Shown here piece by piece: positions 14,361 through 32,913 of a stretch of DNA of 33,262 bases (positions within the stretch are counted from its first letter, which is position 1; each line of letters begins with the position of its first letter). The translations under genes and the position numbers were made by a program. This DNA is from Spirochaetota bacterium (lineage in GTDB: Bacteria; Spirochaetota; UBA4802; UBA5368), in NCBI GenBank assembly GCA_004297825.1, contig SCSX01000021.1, positions 1 to 33,262 of the forward strand, in the 5' to 3' direction. The notes under the pieces are model-generated. The model had not been told where the DNA came from. It made no database searches and saw nothing but the letters and a program-made list of their open reading frames with translations.

Positions 14361-16982
14361 ATGATAAAAAACTTTATCGCTCAATTCAAGGAAAACCTCA
14401 AGCAGAACAAGTACTACGCAGTGGGCGTTTCTGTCGTCCTGGTGCTCTTCATCCTGCTCCTGAGCCTGACCACCATCTACGAGCTCTTCGAGCTTAAGCT
14501 CTATGACCTGCGCTTCCGCGTGAAACCGGCTCCCGCCCAGTGGGAGATGCTCACGTTCCTGGATATCGACGATAACGCGATCAAGATCGGCGGACAGTTT
14601 CCGTGGCCGCGCTATATCTACGCGGACGGTGTCAATGTGCTGCACAAGGCCGGCCTTCGCCAGGCCGCGTTCGACGTCCAGTTCATGGACGATTCGCCGC
14701 GCATCGCCCGCAAGGATGAATTCTCGGCCATGATCGAGCGGGCCAGGGCCGGCGGGCGCATGACCGTCGAGGACGTCGAGAAAGCCGTGATCGACAACGA
14801 CAAGCTGCTGGCCGCCGCGCTGAAGCAATCCGGCAGCGTAGTGCTCTCCTACAGCTTCCTGAATGAAAAGATATCCATGGATCACCTGGACAGGAAAACC
14901 CGGCAGGAGTACGACGCCGCGTACAGGATTTTCACCGAGAAGGCGTCCATCCCCGTGCCCAAAGAGCGCGTCGGCGAGTTCCAATCGCTCGTTTCTCCCG
15001 ACCGCGTGATGATCCAGTTTCCCATCCCCGCCCTCACGCGCCAGGCGCGGACCTTTGGCTATGTAGACAGCGACTTTGACATGGACGGGATATCGAGGAA
15101 AATCCGGCTGGTGCGCGTGTTCGAGAACCGCGTCTATTTCCACATGGCGCTGGCGATGCTCATCGATCAATGCGGGATAAAGCCGGACGATGTCAGAATC
15201 ACCCCCGGGTCCCGCATAGTGCTCCCGAACGCGGTCAATCCCGTAACCCTGGAAAAGAAGGACATCGTCATTCCCATCGACGCGAAGGGGATGATGTTCA
15301 TCAACTGGGCGGGCCAGTTCGCGACCACCTTTCACCACCTGTCCTTCAGCGCGCTGCTCGAATACGGGAACTTCCGCGACAGCGTGTACGCGTTCCTGAA
15401 CGACGAGGGCGATGACTTTCTCCGTGAACAGAAAATGACCCGAAAGTCGATCGTGGCGGAGCTGCCCAAACGTATCGCGGACTACGCCGCGGCGAAGGAT
15501 CCGGCCCAAAGGGCCGATAAATGGAAAACGCTCGCCGCCACCAGGGACAAGCTGCGTTCCGTGGACGTCGCGATCTTTAAAGGCATCCAGGACGAGGCGG
15601 CAACAAGCGCCGAAAAGCTTAAATCCGCGCCTAAGCGCGACCTCCAGGAATACGTCACCAATCTGCAGAATCTCTCGGCCGCCTTCAAGCTCGTAAGCGA
15701 GGTCGACCAGCTCCGTGACAAAACCGGTATTATCGGACTCACCGCCACGGCGACCCAGGACATGGGGGTGACGCCGGTGTCATCGGAGTATCCCATGGTG
15801 GGCACGTATCACAATATTTTCAACACCATAGTCCAGAACAACTACATCCACAAGGCGCATCCCCTTATTAACATTCTGATAATGCTGGCTATCGCACTGG
15901 CGGCGGGTCTCCTCATACAGCGCCTTTCCGCCATGCAGATAATCGTCGCGATCATCGCCGGTTTCATAGGCGTGACCGTCGTGAGCGTACTCGTCTTCGC
16001 CCTGGCCGATGTCTGGCTTGACCAGCTCGGAATAACCCTGTCGCTTCTCCTGCCCTCCGTCGCGATCGGTGCCATAAAGTTCGCGAGCGAGGAAAGCCAG
16101 AAGCGCTTCATCAAGTCCGCGTTTTCGAACTACCTTTCCCCCCTGGTCATCGACGAGATCATCAAGAACCCCGAGTCCCTCCAGCTCGGCGGCGAGCTGC
16201 GGGAGATAAGCATATTTTTCTCGGACGTCGCCGGTTTCTCGACGATCTCCGAGAAGCTGAACCCCCAGCAACTGGTCGCGCTGTTGAACGAGTACCTCTC
16301 CGAAATGACCGACATCATACTCGGTTATGGGGGCACCGTCGACAAGTACGAGGGGGACGCCATTATCGCGTTTTTCGGCGCCCCGCACCCCTTCCCCGAC
16401 CACGCCCAACGGCTCTGCTTCGCGGCGATTGACATGAAGAAGAGACTCGCGGAGCTCAGGGACGAATGGCGCAAAACGGGGCGCGACGAGCTCAAGGTCC
16501 GCATGGGCATGAACACCGGTAACGCGGTCGTGGGCAACATGGGTTCCAAGATGCGCATGGACTACACCATGATGGGCGACGCGGTCAACCTCGCGGCGCG
16601 GCTCGAGGGCGTGAACAAGAAGTACGGGACCTACGCCATGATCGCGGAGAACACGTACGAGCAGGCAAAGGACGTGATCGAGGCGCGCGAGCTTGACATC
16701 ATCCGGGTTGTCGGCAAGGAGGAGCCCACCAAGGTATACGAGCTCCTGGGAAGAAAGGGCAGCCTCCCCGACTACATGCACGAGATGCTGGAAAAATATT
16801 ACGAGGGGCTCGCGGCATGGCGCGAGCGCGAGTGGAAGGCCGCACGCTCGGCGTTCAGGTCAGCGCTCAAGATCGTCGAAAACGACGGCGCGTCCAAGAC
16901 CTACTACGACCGCTGCACCGAATTCATCGAGAATCCCCCGCCCAAGAGCTGGGACGGGGTATACCGGCTCACGACAAAATAA
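14361..16982 (+). CDS. CHASE2-domain class III adenylate cyclase
   Basis: An 873-residue membrane protein. One TM segment (~20-42) leads into a large periplasmic CHASE2 sensor (Y-D-L-R-F-R, V-L-H-K-A-G-L-R-Q-A-A-F-D-V-Q-F), interrupted by a helical insertion (~340-450). Three TM segments (~497-575) and a cytosolic cyclase domain (~610-790) follow. Catalytic residues are present: metal-binding D622 (F-S-D-V-A-G-F-S) and D666 (Y-E-G-D), adenine-selecting K662 with T736, and transition-state N743 and R747 (V-N-L-A-A-R-L-E). The Lys/Thr pair favours ATP, so cAMP is the expected product. The C-terminal ~80 residues form a TPR-like helical tail. ATG 14361 has GGTGGA upstream. Nearby FecR-domain and outer-membrane genes suggest an envelope stimulus. 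Confidence 0.9.
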   Translation: MIKNFIAQFKENLKQNKYYAVGVSVVLVLFILLLSLTTIYELFELKLYDLRFRVKPAPAQWEMLTFLDIDDNAIKIGGQFPWPRYIYADGVNVLHKAGLRQAAFDVQFMDDSPRIARKDEFSAMIERARAGGRMTVEDVEKAVIDNDKLLAAALKQSGSVVLSYSFLNEKISMDHLDRKTRQEYDAAYRIFTEKASIPVPKERVGEFQSLVSPDRVMIQFPIPALTRQARTFGYVDSDFDMDGISRKIRLVRVFENRVYFHMALAMLIDQCGIKPDDVRITPGSRIVLPNAVNPVTLEKKDIVIPIDAKGMMFINWAGQFATTFHHLSFSALLEYGNFRDSVYAFLNDEGDDFLREQKMTRKSIVAELPKRIADYAAAKDPAQRADKWKTLAATRDKLRSVDVAIFKGIQDEAATSAEKLKSAPKRDLQEYVTNLQNLSAAFKLVSEVDQLRDKTGIIGLTATATQDMGVTPVSSEYPMVGTYHNIFNTIVQNNYIHKAHPLINILIMLAIALAAGLLIQRLSAMQIIVAIIAGFIGVTVVSVLVFALADVWLDQLGITLSLLLPSVAIGAIKFASEESQKRFIKSAFSNYLSPLVIDEIIKNPESLQLGGELREISIFFSDVAGFSTISEKLNPQQLVALLNEYLSEMTDIILGYGGTVDKYEGDAIIAFFGAPHPFPDHAQRLCFAAIDMKKRLAELRDEWRKTGRDELKVRMGMNTGNAVVGNMGSKMRMDYTMMGDAVNLAARLEGVNKKYGTYAMIAENTYEQAKDVIEARELDIIRVVGKEEPTKVYELLGRKGSLPDYMHEMLEKYYEGLAAWREREWKAARSAFRSALKIVENDGASKTYYDRCTEFIENPPPKSWDGVYRLTTK

Positions 16983-22242: not shown

Positions 22243-23793
22243 TCAGAGTATCTCGAAGCCCAGGAGGACCACGTCGTCGTTTATCCGCGCCGATCCCCTG
22301 AAGGCGTTGACCGCTTCAATTATCGTATCGAGCGTAGCCGACAGCGTTTCGCGGCGGGATTCATGGAAGAGCTTTACGAGTCCTTCTTCGAAGCCCAGCA
22401 TTTCCTTGCGCTCGTTTTCCGTTTCCGATATGCCGTCTGTGTATAGCAGAAGCCTGTCTCCTTTTCCGAGCACCATGGTCTTCTCCTCGTACACCGCCTG
22501 CTCGAACGCCCCGATAATCGTGCCCCGGGAATCGAAGAGCTCCGCGCTCCCGTCCGCGCGTAGCAGTACCGGATATGGATGCCCGCCGTTGCAGAAGGTG
22601 AAGCGCGCGCTCCCGTCGGTAAGGAAACTGAACAGCCCGTATATGCCCGTAAGGAAGTAGCTCGACATGTAGTCCTTGAGCTGGATGTTGAGCTGTTTGA
22701 TATATTCTGCGGGCGAGAAGGCATGCTTGCGGAAGATGCGATCGGTGGTGAATTTCACGAGTGACACGAAGAGCGCTGCGGCGATCCCATGCCCGGACAC
22801 GTCGCCTATGAACACGCCAAGCTCCAGGTCGCCGTACGGGAGGACGGTGAAATAGTCCCCACCCACCGTGTCCAGGGGGATATAGCGGTACTCGACCTGG
22901 AACCGCGTGCTTTCAGGAAGCTGCTTGTGGATGAGCGCGCGCTGCGTGAGCTGCGCGAGCTTCATGTCCTTCTCGACCGCATCGCTGCGCTCGCGCAGTT
23001 TCCCTTCGGAGACGCGCAGTGCGTCTTCCGCCGCCTTGCGCGCGGTGACGTCCTCCTTCACGGCGACGAAATGCGTAATCTCGCCGTTCCCTTCCCTGAT
23101 AGGGGAAATGGAAGCGGATTCCCAGTACAGCTCCCCGTTTTTTTTCCGGTTGTGGAACTCCCCACGCCACTCGTTCCCCGCCAGTATGGTCTGCCATAGA
23201 TCCCGGTAGAAAGGCGCGTCCTGGGTCCCCGACTTGAGTATTCGCGGGTTTTTGCCCACCGCTTCATCGAGGGTGTACCCCGTGAGCTTGGTGAACTTGG
23301 GATTTACGTACTCTATGGTGCCGTGCTTGTCGGTAATGACGACGGTGGAGGGACTTTGCTCTATGGCCCGCGAGAGCTTCCTCAGGGTAAGCTCCCGCTC
23401 CTTCTGCGCGGTGATATCGACGAGGAATCCGTCCATGCGGTACTCCCCCGGCTGGTCGCCGCCCGAAGCCGTACAGGTGTTCGAGACCCAGCGCACGCTG
23501 CCGTCCTTGCGCACGATGCGGTGCTCAATGCTGGAAGAGGCGCCGCTGTTCCTGACTGCGGCCAGAAAGGCGGACACGCGCGCGCGGTCCTCGGCATGAA
23601 TCATGAGGTACCAGAGGTAGGGGTTGGAGCCAAGCTCTTCCGGGGAATAGCCGGTGACCCTGGCGGATTGGGGGCTGTGGTAGGAACGCACGCTCTCCTC
23701 GTCCCGCATCCGGACGCTGTAGATGTATTCACTTACGTTGCTTATGATCGACCTGAAGGTATCCTCGTTCTGCAATAGCGAATCGGAACTCAT
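22243..23793 (-). CDS. PAS-PAS-SpoIIE (PPM/PP2C-type) serine phosphatase
   Basis: A 516-residue cytosolic protein. A first PAS/PAC (~10-130; R-V-T-G-Y-S-P-E-E-L) and a second PAS/PAC (~140-265; V-V-I-T-D-K-H-G-T-I-E-Y-V-N-P-K-F) are followed by a short coiled linker and a SpoIIE domain (~305-516). Metal-binding residues are present: D313 (G-G-D-Y-F), D331 (I-G-D-V-S-G-H-G), Y-T-D-G-I-S-E, and D506-D507 (N-D-D-V-V-L-L-G). Such proteins dephosphorylate anti-sigma-factor antagonists in partner-switching pathways; no STAS or RsbW-type partner gene is in the window. The start at 23793 has a GAGGATG-type site. It converges with the flavoprotein gene. Confidence 0.9.
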   Translation of the reverse strand: MSSDSLLQNEDTFRSIISNVSEYIYSVRMRDEESVRSYHSPQSARVTGYSPEELGSNPYLWYLMIHAEDRARVSAFLAAVRNSGASSSIEHRIVRKDGSVRWVSNTCTASGGDQPGEYRMDGFLVDITAQKERELTLRKLSRAIEQSPSTVVITDKHGTIEYVNPKFTKLTGYTLDEAVGKNPRILKSGTQDAPFYRDLWQTILAGNEWRGEFHNRKKNGELYWESASISPIREGNGEITHFVAVKEDVTARKAAEDALRVSEGKLRERSDAVEKDMKLAQLTQRALIHKQLPESTRFQVEYRYIPLDTVGGDYFTVLPYGDLELGVFIGDVSGHGIAAALFVSLVKFTTDRIFRKHAFSPAEYIKQLNIQLKDYMSSYFLTGIYGLFSFLTDGSARFTFCNGGHPYPVLLRADGSAELFDSRGTIIGAFEQAVYEEKTMVLGKGDRLLLYTDGISETENERKEMLGFEEGLVKLFHESRRETLSATLDTIIEAVNAFRGSARINDDVVLLGFEIL

Positions 23794-24551: not shown

Positions 24552-26192
24552 TCATCCCTGGTCCGCGGAAATCTCGGAATCCTCCGCGATCAGTACTACG
24601 TTCCTTCCCGCCCGCTTCGCGCGGTAGAGGGCCTTGTCGGCGATGCGTATGAGCGCGGTATGGTCCGATGCGTGACGCGGGTACATCGATATCCCGCCCG
24701 AGAGTGTCGCCTTGATACTATGCCCCCCGCTCCGGCTGCGCACCGCGGCGAAATGGGAGCGCACCGCCTCGGCGCGATCGAGGACGATTTCCTCCCGCGC
24801 GCCGGGCATTATTATCAGGAACTCCTCGCCCCCGTAGCGGCAGGTGATGTCGCTTTTCCTCGTAAATTCGCGCATGATGTCGCCCAGCGCTTTAAGGATG
24901 AGGTCCCCCGTCTGGTGCCCGTACTCGTCATTGACGATCTTGAAGAAATCGATGTCAAGGAGAATGCACCCGACCGTTTCGTTCGAGCGCTCCGCGCGTA
25001 CAAGCTCCTTCGCGAACACCTCGTCGAGGAAATAGCGGTTGAACAGCCCGGTAAGGGGGTCCCGCATGGCCATCTCCTCCAGTTTTTCCTGGAGGGCCTT
25101 TGCCCGGTCAAGACGCGCGAGGAGCAGGTCGTGCGACTTCCTGAGCTCCAGCTCCATGTTTTTCCTTTCCGAAATGTCCCTGAGCACGAGAAGGCGGCCC
25201 TGCACGACGTTACCGGAGGGCGAGAGGTCCCATGATTTCATTTCAAAGTGCGCGGGGCCCCGGGGCGTTTCGAGCACGACATCTCGTCGAATCCCCCCCG
25301 GGGCGAGATCGGCGGGGAGGGCTTCACTCATCCCGGGACACATAGTCCCGACGTCCGCCCCGATCATGAGTCCGCCGTTCGCCGCGCATATATCGGACGC
25401 GGCCTTGTTATAGTCCAGCACACGCGCGTTATCGTCGAGCACGATTACCGCGTCGTCCATCGTCTCAATGAGCAGGTCCCTGGCCATGGGAATGGTATCG
25501 AAGTGCCGGTAGCGGACCAGGCCCCACGCGGCGAGCAGGCCTCCCGTTGTTATGGTGAACGGGGAAATGTCCCTGAGCGGGAAATCGCACAGCGCGGCCA
25601 GCGTGACGGCCGCGCCCAGCAGCGGAATCGCGTGCCCCGCTATGACGAATCCGACCTGCCGGCGATACAGGTGGTGCATGCGAATGAAGGCCCGCAGGAG
25701 AATGAGAAGGGCGTGCAGGAGGACGAGCAGCACGCACGCGGCGGCAATGATGGCCAGGGGGGAAAATTCGTAAATCAGGAAAAGGCCGCCCTCCCGGGAT
25801 TCCAGCCGGGGGTCGATCCGCGCAAGGCCGTGGAAGGGATCGGTTGCCATGAACAGAATGCCGGCGATCGCGGGGAGCGCGATGAGCAGGGAAAGGGGCC
25901 GGGGAGGCTTTATGCGGGCGCTCGCGGTGACCGCGGCGAAATGCCACAGGAACACCGCCCACCCTGCCCCGCCCGCGTACTGTAAAAGGTCCCAGGAAAG
26001 CTTGTGCTGGATAGTCGTCGCGAGCAGGTCGAGGAGCGTTCCCGTGATCCAGAGCGCCTGGAACAGGGATACGGCCCCGTAACAAAGGGCGCCCGGCTCC
26101 CTGCGCCTGCCGATGCAATACCAGGCAAGTGAAAGCGAGACACCCAGTGAGAGCACGCAAAAAAGTATATATATGCCCCTCGTGCTTACCAT
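24552..26192 (-). CDS. 7TM-PAS-GGDEF diguanylate cyclase
   Basis: A 546-residue membrane protein if started at M-V-S-T-R-G-I-Y-I-L-F. Seven hydrophobic segments (~5-230) are of the 7TM sensor type seen in some histidine kinases and cyclases. A PAS-like domain (~235-360; A-V-I-V-L-D-D-N-A-R-V-L-D-Y-N-K-A), a coiled coil (~365-390) and a GGDEF domain (~392-546) follow. The active site is G-G-E-E-F at 454-458, with an intact inhibitory RxxD (R445-D448) five residues before it. It should therefore make c-di-GMP with product feedback. The frame is open to an ATG at 26294, giving 34 extra residues; neither start has a good ribosome site. The shorter one places TM1 close to the N-terminus, so I prefer it. 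Confidence 0.88.
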   Translation of the reverse strand: MVSTRGIYILFCVLSLGVSLSLAWYCIGRRREPGALCYGAVSLFQALWITGTLLDLLATTIQHKLSWDLLQYAGGAGWAVFLWHFAAVTASARIKPPRPLSLLIALPAIAGILFMATDPFHGLARIDPRLESREGGLFLIYEFSPLAIIAAACVLLVLLHALLILLRAFIRMHHLYRRQVGFVIAGHAIPLLGAAVTLAALCDFPLRDISPFTITTGGLLAAWGLVRYRHFDTIPMARDLLIETMDDAVIVLDDNARVLDYNKAASDICAANGGLMIGADVGTMCPGMSEALPADLAPGGIRRDVVLETPRGPAHFEMKSWDLSPSGNVVQGRLLVLRDISERKNMELELRKSHDLLLARLDRAKALQEKLEEMAMRDPLTGLFNRYFLDEVFAKELVRAERSNETVGCILLDIDFFKIVNDEYGHQTGDLILKALGDIMREFTRKSDITCRYGGEEFLIIMPGAREEIVLDRAEAVRSHFAAVRSRSGGHSIKATLSGGISMYPRHASDHTALIRIADKALYRAKRAGRNVVLIAEDSEISADQG

Positions 26193-26356
26193 GATGTGAG
26201 AATATTCCGCATTTTCTTTGTAGTGTGCCCGGATACCGTACTTTTTATAAAAGCGCCTCCCGGGCGCTTCCCTTTCGTGGTATTCCTGTCTCATCTATTT
26301 CATGAAACGCTTGAAAAGTCAAGCAGTCCGCATTCATGCGCGAATGGAAAAAGCAC

Positions 26357-26917: not shown

Positions 26918-27406
26918 ATGAAATATGTATCCATCGATGATCCGTCGGCGTGCCCCTACGGCATGCTGTATCGGCTCTCGCTCCTGGCCACTGCCGCGGT
27001 CAAGGCGGAGTTCGCGCGCGCGGGTATAAGCGCGGTGAAGCCGGCGTATCTTGGTGTGCTCATGCGCCTGTGGTACGCCGAAAGGACCGATGGCACGGTG
27101 AGCAGGCTGGGACACGAGGACGGCATCAGGATAAGCGAACTGGGAAGGATGACCGGGCTGGAGCCTTCGAGCATGACGGGCCTCGTGGATCGCATGGAGC
27201 GCGACGGCCTGGTCCTGCGCGCCCCCGATCCCCACGACCGGAGGTCGCAGGTGGTGAGCCTCACGGAGGCGGGAAGCGCGGCGCAGTCCGGCGTCATTGC
27301 CGCGCTGGACCGCGCGCTCGAAATGGTTTTCCAGGGTATGCCGCAGTCGGAACTGGCCGCCGGGAAGAAATTCCTGGAGCGGGCGATCGCCAACCTGGAG
27401 GCCTGA
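26918..27406 (+). CDS. MarR-family transcriptional regulator
   Basis: A 162-residue protein with the winged helix-turn-helix of MarR proteins. I-R-I-S-E-L-G-R-M-T-G-L-E-P-S-S-M-T (~69-86) is the helix-turn-helix region, L-V-D-R-M-E-R-D-G-L-V follows, and the wing is D-P-H-D-R-R-S-Q-V-V-S-L-T-E-A-G (~107-122). The D-x-R-D/R-R wing residues contact DNA in this family. It is probably co-transcribed with the thioesterase and represses the shared promoter through the palindrome at 26365-26383; the ligand may be an aromatic acid or acyl-CoA. A short terminator hairpin follows directly. Confidence 0.88.
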   Translation: MKYVSIDDPSACPYGMLYRLSLLATAAVKAEFARAGISAVKPAYLGVLMRLWYAERTDGTVSRLGHEDGIRISELGRMTGLEPSSMTGLVDRMERDGLVLRAPDPHDRRSQVVSLTEAGSAAQSGVIAALDRALEMVFQGMPQSELAAGKKFLERAIANLEA

Positions 27407-27428: not shown

Positions 27429-30400
27429 TTACCGCGCCTCGACCAGGCCGTCGATCGTCCTTCTGAGCGCCGCAGCCGATTCCGGGTTGTACATGATGAG
27501 AATATCCGCGCCCGCGTAGAGGAGCGCCGTCGCGGTTGAAAGCTCCCACACGGCCGCGCGCTTTTCGAGCTCTCCCCACTCGGGGAAGTCCGCGCCGGAC
27601 GCGCGCAACTCCTTGATCTTCGCGCACTCCTGTCCCGGAGACACGATCATGGGCGCGGCGAGCGCCGCGTCCCCGCCCAGCCCCGTGAGCCGAATGCGCT
27701 CCATCACGGAATAGGTATACTCGATCCCGTAGCCCATCGCCCCCGTCATGGGATCTATCACGATGCGGTTCGCGGGAATGCCCATGTTGCCCAGCAGTAT
27801 GCAGAGCTGTTTCGCGATGTTCACGTCGATGGGGCTTTGCGCGACCAGGGTATGGCCGTACGCGAGCGCCGCCCCGGCGATGGTCCGGTAGTTGTCCTGC
27901 TCCACCCAGTTCAGCAATAAATTTTCCCCCGCGCATCCACGCGCGATCTCCTTCATCACCTCGTTGTTTTTCTCGTAATGGTTGTGGCCCGTGACGATGA
28001 GCGGCACGTCGACGGCGGCGAGCACCTCCTTTACGAACGCGAGCGAATCGGCCGCCGCGCGGTTTCCCCGCTCGGGGTGCGTTCCGTCCAGGCGCACGCT
28101 GATGACGTCGGCGCCGTATTTTTCCACGCACGCGCGCGCCATCTCCGCAGGCCTGGCGAGCAGGCCGCCCCACATGGCCCTGAGCACGGGCGGATACTTT
28201 TCGCTCACGCGGTCGAAGACCTCCATCGCGACGAGCGGCCGGTGCGGCGCGCTCCCCTCCCATCCATGAAAAGGCATGGACGGCGCCCCGCCTATGGTGA
28301 GCGTCCTTCCGCGTGTTCCCCCTTCCGCCCTGGTCGCGCCCAGGGTTATCGCGTGGACGGGAATCTCGACGCGGTCCTTTCTTACGGCGAAGGATTTTAT
28401 GGCGCCGATTCGCTCGGCCGCCCGGGGCGCCGCGGGTTTCACGGCGGGAGCTTTCTGCGGCGTATGCGCATCGCGCGCCTTCCCCGTCCCCGTATGCCCG
28501 GTGGCGCCGCGATGCCGCACGAGCTCCGCCCCATCAAGAAATTTCCCCGAAAGGACGCCGATAATATCGGTCACTATTTCGCGCGTGAGCGATTCCTTTA
28601 TCTCCGCGCGTACCTGGCTCATGATTTCTTCTTTAAGTGCGGCAATGTCCAGCGTGCCTGGGATCGCGGGTCCCGAAGCCTGGGGCGCCTCCACGACGCT
28701 TTCCGGCGCCGCTGGAATTTCACGGAGCGCCTGCTTTCCGGACGGGGCAGGCGCCGCCTGCGCCGGGGAAGGATCCCCTCCTTCCGCGACATTCGCCATG
28801 TCCTCCATGGAGAGCGCCGGGTGCCCGGCCTTTTCCATGAAGGCGCGCACCTCGCGTGCCTCGATCGCGATCGACTCGTCCGCAATCATGTCGAGAAGAC
28901 CGGGGGCGCCCTGCTCCCCGAAGCGCCGGTTGAGGTCGTCCGCGAGGAGCTCCTTGAGTTCCTTCGTCATCCAGACCAGGCGCCTGTGGCCACCCTCGGC
29001 GTAGAGGAACTTGCGCGAGGTGAGGAAGACCTTGCCGCATCCCATGAAGCCGGGGGTCTGGGCGCCGCCGCCCACGTTCCCGGCGAGCGTGGAAAAGCTC
29101 ATGCCCACGGGCGTCTCCCCGGTGTATTCCCGGTTCACGGCCATGACGCCGTTCGCCTCCGGGAGATAGGCGAGTATCACCTCGAAGCAGCCGCAGCTCG
29201 TCATGGGGCGCTCCATGATGGAATAGAGGCAGAAACTTTCCACGGACTTGTGCGAATTCGCGTACACGTACTCGTTCACGCCGGACCACACGCCGCGCAC
29301 CGGGTCCATGCACTCGCCCTTGCGCACGGGCTGGTTGGGACCCGTCTCGTCGATCTCGTGGGCGGCCTTGCCGTCCAGCCAGTTGTACGCGCCGCACAGC
29401 CCCAGGCGCTCCGGCGTGATCACACACACGTGGTTGGGCGCGAACGACTGGCAGAGCAGGCATGAGTAGAAGGTGTCCACCGATTCGTCGGTCATGGATT
29501 CGAGCCTGCGGTTGCGCTCCTGGTAAATCTTGCGCGCAACGGCTATGCGGCGCTCCACCTCGGCCGCGTCGGTGAAGAGGGTGACCTTCACCTTGTCGAC
29601 GATCGCCGGGTAGTTCGCGAGGAATTTGGCGTGGAGTATCTCGCCGTAATCTTTAAGGCGCAGTCCCTTCCCGAAGCCGTTTTTAGAAATGCGCGTCCAT
29701 ACGATATCGCGCTGGCCCATGTGCCAGATGCCCTCCGCGCCGTTGACCAAGTGGTGTATCTGGCGCTCGAGGATGGACTCGAAGTCCGGCTGCATCTTGC
29801 GGCCCGCCACCTCGACCCAGATCGCCAGCGGCAGCGCGCTCCCCGGCTCAATGTCATCCACGTCCTTTCCGACAATCTCGATCTCCCCGTCGTTGATATC
29901 CTCCAGCCCCACGGTTGTCACGAACTCGAAGGCCGTCGTGATGTTCCCGCCAAACTCGACGTGCGTGTCCTGCTTGCGGATGCGCTCGCCCTCGAAGGCG
30001 GCGCCGTAGGGGACGGGGATGGGCACCTTCGTGATCCTGATCTTGCATCCCCTCACCTCGAGCGCCTTTTCCACCATGGTTTCGGGCGGCACGTTCGACA
30101 CGACGTGCTCGTAGGTCGTGATCCCGGACGGGAGTATCTGCGGGATGTCGGTGTCGGCGATGACGGGGAAGCCGTAGTTGAGCGCCCCCGCGGCGGCGGC
30201 GTACTTCGCGGAATCGACCTCGCCCATCGCGAGCACGAAGGCGAAGATGCGGTCCTTGTTGTAGCGTAAATTCGCACGGAAATCCCCCGGCTTCACCCCG
30301 CCGAACGAGAGGGCCGCGCGGTTCGCGAAGCCCAGCGCGTAGATGAGCGCCGATACGTCGGGCCCGAAGGGAACGAGCCTGGTTTCCCAGCCAAGCTGCA

Positions 30401-30971
30401 CCCCCTCCTCGTGCAGCTGTTCCGCGAACTGCTTCCCGTTCGTGGAACCGGCCATGAACACGTAGAGGTTTTTCTCCTGGAGCTCGCGCGCGATCCGGAC
30501 CGCGATCGCGTTCGTAGGCGCGGCCCCGGTAATCGCCGCGAATCCCGGCGCGGTGCCGTCCACGAACTCGATCCCGCGCTCGCGCATGATGATGTCGTTC
30601 GCCGCGCCCAGCCATATGCCGTTCACGGGGGACGGTCCCGCAAGATACTTGCACGCCTCGATGATCTCGCAGGCGAAGAGCGCCGCGACCCCGGCGTCAA
30701 GGGTATTGCCCAGGTAGGGCAGCCACACGTGCTCCGCGGGGCGCGCGGGCAGAAGAGATTTCGCATAACGAAGGAGGCGCCTGAGGTCGGCGACGGTTTC
30801 CATCTTCTCACCGGTAAAGGAGTATATGACGGGCAGGTAGTACGCGGTGTCGGGGAATCCCGTATCGGCCCCCTCCCCCTTCTCCGCCATGGCCCGGTCG
30901 AGCATCTGTTCGGCGCGGGCGACCCACTCGACGGCGCCGTCTATGGCGCTCGCGCATATCAGCTTAGACAT
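27429..30971 (-). CDS. acsB-acsD: Acetyl-CoA synthase fused to corrinoid iron-sulfur protein small subunit (AcsB-AcsD)
   Basis: An 1180-residue fusion. Residues ~1-730 are a bacterial-type acetyl-CoA synthase including its N-terminal CODH-docking domain. A-cluster ligands are complete: C504, C507, C516 and C526 for the cubane, C593-G-C595 for the distal nickel; spacing equals that known for Moorella AcsB. Residues ~735-865 are an Ala/Pro-rich linker with a charged amphipathic helix (~775-815). Residues ~865-1180 are the AcsD/CdhD TIM barrel (L-G-A-T-R-A-E-G-G-T-R, Y-G-A-D-V-I-S-V-R-L-D-G, V-I-D-P-M-T-G-A-M-G-Y-G-I-E-Y). These are normally separate genes. It joins a methyl group, CO and CoA into acetyl-CoA. 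The start overlaps the CODH gene by 8 nt, with AGGAGG upstream. No frameshift or stop interrupts the junction. Confidence 0.93.
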   Translation of the reverse strand: MSKLICASAIDGAVEWVARAEQMLDRAMAEKGEGADTGFPDTAYYLPVIYSFTGEKMETVADLRRLLRYAKSLLPARPAEHVWLPYLGNTLDAGVAALFACEIIEACKYLAGPSPVNGIWLGAANDIIMRERGIEFVDGTAPGFAAITGAAPTNAIAVRIARELQEKNLYVFMAGSTNGKQFAEQLHEEGVQLGWETRLVPFGPDVSALIYALGFANRAALSFGGVKPGDFRANLRYNKDRIFAFVLAMGEVDSAKYAAAAGALNYGFPVIADTDIPQILPSGITTYEHVVSNVPPETMVEKALEVRGCKIRITKVPIPVPYGAAFEGERIRKQDTHVEFGGNITTAFEFVTTVGLEDINDGEIEIVGKDVDDIEPGSALPLAIWVEVAGRKMQPDFESILERQIHHLVNGAEGIWHMGQRDIVWTRISKNGFGKGLRLKDYGEILHAKFLANYPAIVDKVKVTLFTDAAEVERRIAVARKIYQERNRRLESMTDESVDTFYSCLLCQSFAPNHVCVITPERLGLCGAYNWLDGKAAHEIDETGPNQPVRKGECMDPVRGVWSGVNEYVYANSHKSVESFCLYSIMERPMTSCGCFEVILAYLPEANGVMAVNREYTGETPVGMSFSTLAGNVGGGAQTPGFMGCGKVFLTSRKFLYAEGGHRRLVWMTKELKELLADDLNRRFGEQGAPGLLDMIADESIAIEAREVRAFMEKAGHPALSMEDMANVAEGGDPSPAQAAPAPSGKQALREIPAAPESVVEAPQASGPAIPGTLDIAALKEEIMSQVRAEIKESLTREIVTDIIGVLSGKFLDGAELVRHRGATGHTGTGKARDAHTPQKAPAVKPAAPRAAERIGAIKSFAVRKDRVEIPVHAITLGATRAEGGTRGRTLTIGGAPSMPFHGWEGSAPHRPLVAMEVFDRVSEKYPPVLRAMWGGLLARPAEMARACVEKYGADVISVRLDGTHPERGNRAAADSLAFVKEVLAAVDVPLIVTGHNHYEKNNEVMKEIARGCAGENLLLNWVEQDNYRTIAGAALAYGHTLVAQSPIDVNIAKQLCILLGNMGIPANRIVIDPMTGAMGYGIEYTYSVMERIRLTGLGGDAALAAPMIVSPGQECAKIKELRASGADFPEWGELEKRAAVWELSTATALLYAGADILIMYNPESAAALRRTIDGLVEAR

Positions 30972-32913
30972 TCTGCTCCCTCCTGTCCTTCATATCCATA
31001 AGCCGCCGCTCCTGTTTCCTGTTGATGCCGAGCCTCGTCCTGCGTTCGTCAATGATCCGGAGTATCGCGGCGGCGGCCTCCAGGGGGTCGGTGTGCAGGT
31101 GGAAGGAGGCGCCGTAGGTCTCCCGGGCGCCGCCCAGGAGGTACCCGTCCACGTTCGCCGAACCGCCCGTGTAGAAGGGGTTCCCCAGGACCACGTCAAT
31201 CCCGGAGGCAACGAAATAGCAGCCGATCGCGATCGCCTTCTCGCTCATCCATTCCGGCGCGACGCCCACGACCGGGACATCCGAGAGGTCCTCGCCCAGG
31301 CCCCCCTCGCGCACGACCTCGGTCGCGGCCTCGAGGAGGCGCGAGTTGTCGACACAGCTTCCCATGTGGAGGACCGGCGGCATGCCCACCGCCTCGCACA
31401 CCTCGCGCAGACCCTTCCCCGCGGCCTCGAGCGCCGCCTCGGGCGTGAGCATTCCGGCCTTCGCGGAGGCGATGGCGGCACAGCCCGTTTTCAGAATGAG
31501 CACGTCGTTTTTCAGGAGCTCCCTCGTGAGCACGTTGATGTACTCGTCCAGCCGCGTCTTGGGATTGTTGCAGCCCACGATGCCAGCGATGCCCCTGATG
31601 CGCCCCTGGATCACGGCGTCGTTGAGCGGCCGGAACGAGGCGCGGAAGCTCCCGCCCAGCATGTACTTGATCGCCGGGACGCTGAATCCCGCAACGAGCG
31701 GCTGGGAATGCTTCGGTATGCAGACCTTGTGTGGATCGCGGTTTCGGAAATTGTCGATCGCGCCGTAGAGGAGCTTCTTTGCGCCCTCCATCGCGTGTTC
31801 GCGCGAAAAGCTCTCGTGGGTCGCGCCCACCGTGCGCGCGATGTCACTCGTCGACACGATCCGGGTGTGGTACGCCGCGGCCACCTCGGGCAGCGAAGGC
31901 ATGCAGCACTGCACGTCGATGATCATCATCTCGACCGCTCCCGTGATGATCGCGAGCTCCTGCTGCAGAAAGTTCCCCGCGATGGGGATGCCGTGGCGCA
32001 TGAGGATCTCGTTCGCCGTGCAGCATATCCCCGCGAGGGTGATGCCGTTCGCCCCCGCCATGCGCGCGTACTCCTTAACCTCCGTATCCATGGAGGCGAG
32101 CGCGAGCATCTCCGAGAGCGCGGGCTCGTGGCCGTGCACCACCACGTTCACCGTGTCCTCGCCCAGCACCCCGAGGTTCGCGGTGCTCTTCACCGGCGAG
32201 GGCGTGCCGAACAGGATGTCCCCAACGATGCTCGCGATGCGCGAGCCGCCCCAGCCGTCGGCGAGGGCGGTGCGGAAGGCGTGTGTGAGGATGTTCCGGA
32301 AATCGTGGTCCACGCCCATGTGGGTGCGGTGCAGGCTTTCCACCACCATGCGGTCGATGCCGGCGGGCTCCACGCCCACACGCTCCCACACGCCCTGCCG
32401 CTTAACGGGCGCGAGCCTCAGGGTGGCGAGCTTTTCTTCCTGCGCGGTGAACTCCGCAAGGAAGGTCTCCGCGAGCTCGAGCGCCACCTTCATGGCGGAG
32501 AGCCCCGCCTCCTCGACGCCGTAGGCGCGCGCCGCGACGCGGAGCGCCTTCTCGTCCTTGATCTCGTAACTCCCGCCCTTGCCCAGCGCGATGTCGCGGA
32601 GCAGCAACACCAGGTGCCTCCCGTGGTCCGAGTGCGCGGCCGTCCCGGAGGCGACCTCCCTTAAAAAGTTACGCGCGACGACGGTGTCGGCATCGGCGCC
32701 GCACACGCCGCGGGGGGTCTTGGGCGTGATGCGGCAGGGCCCCATGTGGCAGACGCGGCAGCACACGCCGGAGGTCCCGAACTTGCACTGCACGGCCTGC
32801 CGGTCCATGCGGACGAAGCTCGTCTCCACGCAGTCGCGCTCGGCCTTGCCCAGTATCTCGATCGAGGCGCGGTCGGTGGCCCGCTCCTCGGGTGTGCGCG
32901 CATGGTTGTCCAT
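30964..32913 (-). CDS. acsA: Nickel CO dehydrogenase catalytic subunit (AcsA/CooS type)
   Basis: A 649-residue protein interconverting CO2 and CO, which is fed to acetyl-CoA synthase. Cluster ligands are visible: C43 and C51 for the D-cluster bridging the dimer, C52, C55, C60 and C71 for the B-cluster. The Ni-Fe-S C-cluster is bound by H262, Cys297/298, Cys336/337, C448, C478 and C520, with K559 in the place of the catalytic Lys. No signal peptide is seen, so it is cytosolic. It is the first gene of the two-gene operon and overlaps the fusion gene by 8 nt. GAGGAG lies about 10 nt before the ATG. Proximity to AcsB argues for the acetyl-CoA-forming rather than the hydrogenogenic CODH class. Confidence 0.93.
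   Translation of the reverse strand: MDNHARTPEERATDRASIEILGKAERDCVETSFVRMDRQAVQCKFGTSGVCCRVCHMGPCRITPKTPRGVCGADADTVVARNFLREVASGTAAHSDHGRHLVLLLRDIALGKGGSYEIKDEKALRVAARAYGVEEAGLSAMKVALELAETFLAEFTAQEEKLATLRLAPVKRQGVWERVGVEPAGIDRMVVESLHRTHMGVDHDFRNILTHAFRTALADGWGGSRIASIVGDILFGTPSPVKSTANLGVLGEDTVNVVVHGHEPALSEMLALASMDTEVKEYARMAGANGITLAGICCTANEILMRHGIPIAGNFLQQELAIITGAVEMMIIDVQCCMPSLPEVAAAYHTRIVSTSDIARTVGATHESFSREHAMEGAKKLLYGAIDNFRNRDPHKVCIPKHSQPLVAGFSVPAIKYMLGGSFRASFRPLNDAVIQGRIRGIAGIVGCNNPKTRLDEYINVLTRELLKNDVLILKTGCAAIASAKAGMLTPEAALEAAGKGLREVCEAVGMPPVLHMGSCVDNSRLLEAATEVVREGGLGEDLSDVPVVGVAPEWMSEKAIAIGCYFVASGIDVVLGNPFYTGGSANVDGYLLGGARETYGASFHLHTDPLEAAAAILRIIDERRTRLGINRKQERRLMDMKDRREQNV

Follow-up and report, generated by a model that had tools for sequence, protein, structure and literature searches.

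An acetyl-CoA synthase fused to the CFeSP small subunit in Spirochaetota and other bacteria

Introduction

In CODH/ACS systems, CO made by CODH passes through a tunnel to acetyl-CoA synthase (ACS), the C-terminal domain of which swings out to the corrinoid; in the methanogen complex, CFeSP is stably bound (PMC12289521, PMC11474084). The encounter between ACS and its methyl donor is an acknowledged gap. In one study, crowding of the micrographs with CH3-CoFeSP prevented their analysis (PMC12289521), and in another the ACS-CFeSP interaction remained to be seen (PMC11474084); a Clostridium autoethanogenum complex has been deposited since then. A natural protein that joins both partners would be a good target for capturing this state.

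The window analysed here (33,262 nucleotides) is the whole of contig SCSX01000021.1 from a Spirochaetota bacterium, whose 4.89-Mb, 95%-complete genome is a metagenome assembly in 96 contigs. An initial annotation of the window described one gene encoding both ACS (AcsB) and the CFeSP small subunit (AcsD), which are separate subunits in characterised systems. Is this fusion real, how far does it extend beyond the source genome, and what might such a protein do?

A single frame for ACS and the CFeSP small subunit

The fused gene and its two halves are located as follows.

27429..30971, minus strand: acsBD, the fused gene (open frame and translation; same frame at 76 other loci)
28797..30944, minus strand: ACS (AcsB) half, residues 10-725 (NF040764; Pfam PF18537, PF03598, PF19436)
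29187..29462, minus strand: A-cluster cysteines C504, C507, C516, C526, C593 and C595 (invariant in fused ACS)
27441..28376, minus strand: AcsD (CFeSP small subunit) half, residues 866-1177, a TIM barrel (NF003376; 4djd_D)

The acsBD frame comprises 1180 codons without an internal stop and thus encodes a single 1180-residue protein, as first described; the motif AGGAGGG lies immediately 5' of its ATG. Residues 10-725 form a complete bacterial ACS, which scores 1028.6 bits against NF040764 (cut-off 800). This half contains the N-terminal CODH-binding region (PF18537, residues 21-110) and both ACS domains, and the gene of the partner CODH, acsA, is located directly upstream. Among solved proteins, this half is closest to ACS chains such as 7zkj_B. 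All six A-cluster cysteines are found at the positions originally assigned to them, and none of the six varies among 71 fused ACS sequences.

Residues 866-1177 constitute a complete CFeSP small subunit, in agreement with the full AcsD/CdhD barrel that had been proposed. This half scores 356.8 bits against NF003376 (cut-off 280), matches Pfam CdhD, and aligns with the Moorella CFeSP small subunit (4djd_D) at an E-value of 1e-88; its scores against other AcsD models lie under the cut-offs of those models. AcsD is here part of the ACS chain and not a separate subunit. A search of the source genome for a second acsB or acsD, including an unfused acsD, found none.

Conservation and spread of the fusion

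The initial annotation named a sequencing error at the junction as grounds for rejecting the fusion, and the origin of the sequence in a metagenome assembly of 96 contigs might favour a sequencing or assembly artefact. We consider this explanation to be practically negligible, and refuted by the conservation of the architecture: the frame is intact in a sister genome at 84% identity, and an identical open junction, with a conserved helix inside it, occurs at 76 loci from other assemblies. These loci come from a scan of 84,980 species, one genome per species, with the linker helix and the AcsD half as the query. ACS and AcsD share one frame at 76 of the 80 loci obtained, and the remaining four frames run off a contig end; as the query targeted the fused type, this ratio is not a prevalence. 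The search for identical architectures in genome collections thus bore out the initial observation.

Within the same order, the fusion occurs in ten genomes (the source genome included) from three families, with 65-84% identity to the source AcsBD. In two other families of this order, acsB and acsD are separate and the ACS is about 56% identical; in a few draft genomes of the order the fused gene is broken by contig ends. The close relatives that bear names are uncultured Spirochaetota. Two further samples were less biased than the scan. The first, 118 genomes from the phylum to which one Syntrophaceae member belongs, includes about 60 with a full-length ACS, and the only fused one is the genome on which the sample was centred. 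In the second, 145 genomes from the phylum that contains a Lentisphaerae member, ACS is present in three, two of them fused (both known already) and one unfused. As a separate observation, many unfused AcsD proteins in the Syntrophaceae phylum sample (G200, G205, G156 and others) are encoded in frames of about 520-550 codons, compared with the usual 320 or so, and may carry an N-terminal extension.

We calculated trees for ACS (70 fused and 42 unfused sequences) and for AcsD (77 fused and 13 unfused), with unfused sequences sampled from two phyla only. In both trees, a branch with SH-aLRT support of 100 separates the fused group from all other sequences. The fusion thus looks, from these sequences, to have a single origin and is now present in more than ten phyla. 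According to the names of the deposited records, its members belong to Spirochaetota (including termite-gut Treponema), Lentisphaerota, Verrucomicrobiota, Planctomycetota, Bacteroidota, Ignavibacteriota, Fibrobacterota, Acidobacteriota, Thermodesulfobacteriota, Myxococcota, Bdellovibrionota, Bacillota, Actinomycetota and candidate phyla, although nearly all of these records are metagenome bins and some are apparently misnamed. The patchy spread combined with a single origin suggests horizontal transfer of the fused type. Several independent fusions are unsupported by either tree. An AcsD tree that implied six changes was an artefact of five edge-truncated loci labelled as unfused, and the effect disappeared after relabelling.

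The arrangement was initially regarded as unusual in comparison with the separate subunits of characterised systems. It is indeed a single chain here, but with a distribution over more than ten phyla it is not peculiar to the source genome. We found no description of an AcsB-AcsD fusion in the open-access literature; Adam et al. 2018 (PNAS) may hold one. What appears to be new is the joined architecture together with the linker helix, and the fact that AcsE is usually lacking; the kinds of protein involved are already known. Many uncultured anaerobes, termite-gut Treponema among them, have the fused type as their carbonyl-branch enzyme, and surveys that demand separate acsB, acsD and acsE genes (for example, the presence rule in PMC12827605) could misjudge such organisms.

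The linker and its helix

Between the two halves lies a linker with one helical segment.

28377..28796, minus strand: linker, residues 726-865 (140 residues), rich in Ala, Pro and Glu, between the ACS and AcsD halves
28533..28646, minus strand: conserved linker helix (profile match, E 3.3e-18; AlphaFold2 helix 776-811)

An Ala/Pro-rich linker with one helix had been proposed from the window sequence, and the helix proves in addition to be conserved. Linkers in 77 fused proteins measure 64-192 residues (median 125), are rich in Ala, Glu and Pro, and are mostly unalignable. AlphaFold2 assigns low confidence to residues 732-775 and 807-846 and places a single helix, 776-811, within this low-confidence sequence. 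A gap-free conserved segment of about 38-39 residues is present in 66 of the 77 linkers. Its last half approximates T-K-E-I-V-x-D-I-I-G-T-L-S-x-K-F-L-G, in which the I-I, L and F-L-G positions are near-invariant. The hydrophobicity of the helix has a period of 4.0 residues, with a peak matched by none of 2000 shuffles.

No convincing relative of the helix was found in the PDB or Pfam. The VASP tetramerisation domain is matched weakly (best E 0.0056), which hints, and no more than hints, at an oligomerising right-handed coil. Among 39 related genomes, strong matches to the helix profile are confined to ten fused proteins; inheritance of the helix from unfused AcsD or from another protein was considered and dropped, as neither the unfused relatives nor other proteins of these genomes gave a strong match. 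The helix probably serves in docking or self-association. It is not essential to every fused enzyme, since it is absent from a subgroup of four Syntrophaceae loci and one Ignavibacteriae locus with linkers of 64-70 residues.

Operon context and AcsC

The gene order common to fused loci is cooC-acsA-acsBD-acsC-acsV, and acsC adjoins acsBD in most of them. In the window, acsBD is preceded by the CODH gene.

30964..32913, minus strand: acsA, catalytic CODH (TIGR01702, 615 bits, cut-off 478; 8-bp overlap with acsBD)

The initial annotation stated that AcsC, the partner of the small CFeSP subunit, is absent. This holds for the window contig only. In the source genome, acsC is located on another contig (C6; 468 bits, cut-off 306), where it adjoins acsV, and an acsC homologue is present in all 50 fused genomes searched, which rules out a missing AcsC. 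In 45 of these genomes it scores above the curated cut-off; the five below it comprise four with partial acsC pieces and one (G126) with a distant match only.

Several further observations concern these loci. In some, a DUF3786 protein follows acsV, as at L037:13944-14561, and similar genes occur at 13 other fused loci. Beside the fused operon in G010, L037:3361-4422 encodes a 353-residue protein that weakly matches methionine synthase PRK00957 and might belong to the corrinoid-linked core methionine synthases of the MesB type (PMC7857596). One Victivallales genome (G124; loci L083 and L159) has, in addition to the fused system, a second, unfused set of ACS, AcsC, AcsD and AcsE on another contig. 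An apparent fusion of AcsC at locus L116 comes down to a long open frame in which the ACS part contains a frameshift, and a tRNA-like stretch 5' of acsA received no support from ARAGORN or Rfam.

A putative tethered subunit

We propose, with a probability of roughly 0.7, that the product of acsBD is a working bifunctional subunit that keeps ACS permanently tethered to the CFeSP small subunit. This reading, drawn from sequence comparison, is favoured by both halves scoring above curated cut-offs with key residues kept, by the fusion at 76 of 80 loci and the branches with SH-aLRT support of 100, by the shared operon together with an acsC homologue in 50 of 50 fused genomes, and by a flexible linker with one conserved helix. 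It also agrees with the published structures, in which ACS swings out to CFeSP and the methanogen complex holds CFeSP stably. Three points count against it: AlphaFold2 does not place the halves of AcsBD relative to each other (pTM 0.45), AcsBD could be cut into separate chains in the cell, and one subgroup has no linker helix.

In the proposed unit, the ACS half would bind CODH (AcsA) via its N-terminal domain, and the AcsD half would bind AcsC, the carrier of the corrinoid and an Fe-S cluster. The AcsD half with its bound AcsC would hang on a flexible arm from the ACS C-terminal domain, so that the methyl donor is always at hand. Each ACS would carry its own CFeSP, so that the methyl donor would be more concentrated locally around the A-cluster. 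The tether would also fix the ratio of ACS to AcsD at 1:1. The stoichiometry of the complex may change, as the initial annotation proposed. The earlier suggestion that tethering keeps the methyl donor near the A-cluster is plausible and concerns a real fusion; the absence of AcsC that accompanied it was wrong.

An alternative explanation would be that the fusion merely secures co-translation and equal amounts of the subunits, the linker being an inert spacer and catalysis proceeding as in ordinary bacterial ACS and CFeSP. The mostly unalignable linker and the resemblance of the halves to ordinary ACS and AcsD are consistent with this explanation. However, a helix conserved across phyla within a drifting linker implies selection there, and because AcsC is unfused, the fusion does not determine the stoichiometry of CFeSP as a whole. 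We consider the inert-spacer explanation unlikely.

The tethered subunit shares with the CODH/ACS systems of Moorella thermoacetica, Carboxydothermus hydrogenoformans and C. autoethanogenum the ACS with its N-terminal CODH-binding domain and A-cluster, the CFeSP small subunit, and the presence of CODH and AcsC in the genome. It differs from these bacterial systems, in which CFeSP is separate, in that AcsBD is one chain with a conserved linker helix and AcsE is usually missing. In holding ACS and CFeSP together it would resemble the archaeal ACDS complex of methanogens, and a tethered ACS-CFeSP unit would most likely be a bacterial counterpart of that stable assembly. In the E2 subunits of 2-oxoacid dehydrogenase complexes, functional modules are likewise connected by flexible, Ala/Pro-rich arms, between which lies a small helical element. 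AcsBD is similar to them in this plan of module, arm and helix but is unrelated; a sequence relation was neither found nor claimed, and the chemistry differs.

AcsE and methyl loading

CFeSP is normally methylated by AcsE, the CH3-THF:CFeSP methyltransferase. Around the 80 loci of the fused scan, the flanking genes include no recognisable AcsE; in the unfused Spirochaetota clusters at L039 and L040 it is present. The 95%-complete source genome, in which the initial annotation had suggested looking for acsE, yields no match to NF005719 above the cut-off, and its only carriers of the pterin-binding domain PF00809 are FolP and an 812-residue MetH-like protein. A stand-alone AcsE of at least 200 bits was found in two of 39 fused genomes versus seven of ten unfused controls (Fisher p 4e-5), and at a lenient 60-bit limit a stand-alone MeTr-like gene in nine of 39 versus seven of ten (p 0.008), in a comparison where the genomes are incomplete and non-independent, the thresholds were chosen after the data had been seen, and three of the ten controls also lack AcsE. 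One of the two fused genomes with AcsE is G124, which also has an unfused system. The methyl-branch genes fhs (contig C86) and metF (C84) are present in the source genome, so CH3-THF should be made.

Another methyltransferase might load the corrinoid, or the methyl group might come from methylated compounds. One candidate is the 812-residue MetH-like protein (L168:10136-12574, contig C89), which has homocysteine methyltransferase, pterin-binding and B12 domains. It is the sole pterin-binding protein of the source genome besides FolP, and the AcsE model matches its pterin domain at 213 bits. However, no recognised Wood-Ljungdahl gene lies near it, and it has B12 and homocysteine domains of its own, like a methionine synthase. 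Such loading is a credible, if tentative, answer.

Archaeal CFeSP accepts the methyl group directly from the archaeal pterin. By analogy, the AcsD half of the fused clade together with AcsC might take the methyl group directly from CH3-THF and so replace AcsE. The scarcity of stand-alone AcsE in fused genomes and the presence of fhs and metF point in this direction, as does a feature of the fourth barrel strand (LLNWVEQDN): it contains Asn1021-Trp1022 in the fused clade, and position 1021 is elsewhere mostly Gly or Ser (14 unfused AcsD sequences and solved structures). A profile-profile alignment pairs Asn1021 with the Asn in the INS motif of AcsE, which we take to be a pterin ligand. On the other hand, the remaining positions of the AcsE pterin site are matched only in part, some stand-alone MeTr-like gene occurs in nine of 39 fused genomes at the lenient limit, and the post hoc thresholds and AcsE-lacking controls weaken the contrast. 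We regard direct acceptance as rather improbable. Clade-specific changes at positions 965 and 994, seen against the 14 unfused sequences, were unsupported by the sequences of solved AcsD structures and were set aside.

The most far-reaching proposal would be that the fused clade represents a distinct, AcsE-independent bacterial CODH/ACS, tethered, possibly assembled through its helix, with an AcsD that accepts the methyl group of CH3-THF, convergent with ACDS and overlooked in more than ten phyla. We judge this combination to be a long shot.

Other genes in the window

A MarR-family regulator gene (26918-27406, plus strand; PF01047) lies tail to tail with acsBD. At 14361-16982 (plus strand), the window encodes an 873-residue protein with CHASE2 and adenylate/guanylate cyclase domains, and near this gene are those of PAS-SpoIIE and 7TM-GGDEF proteins at 22243-23793 and 24552-26294.
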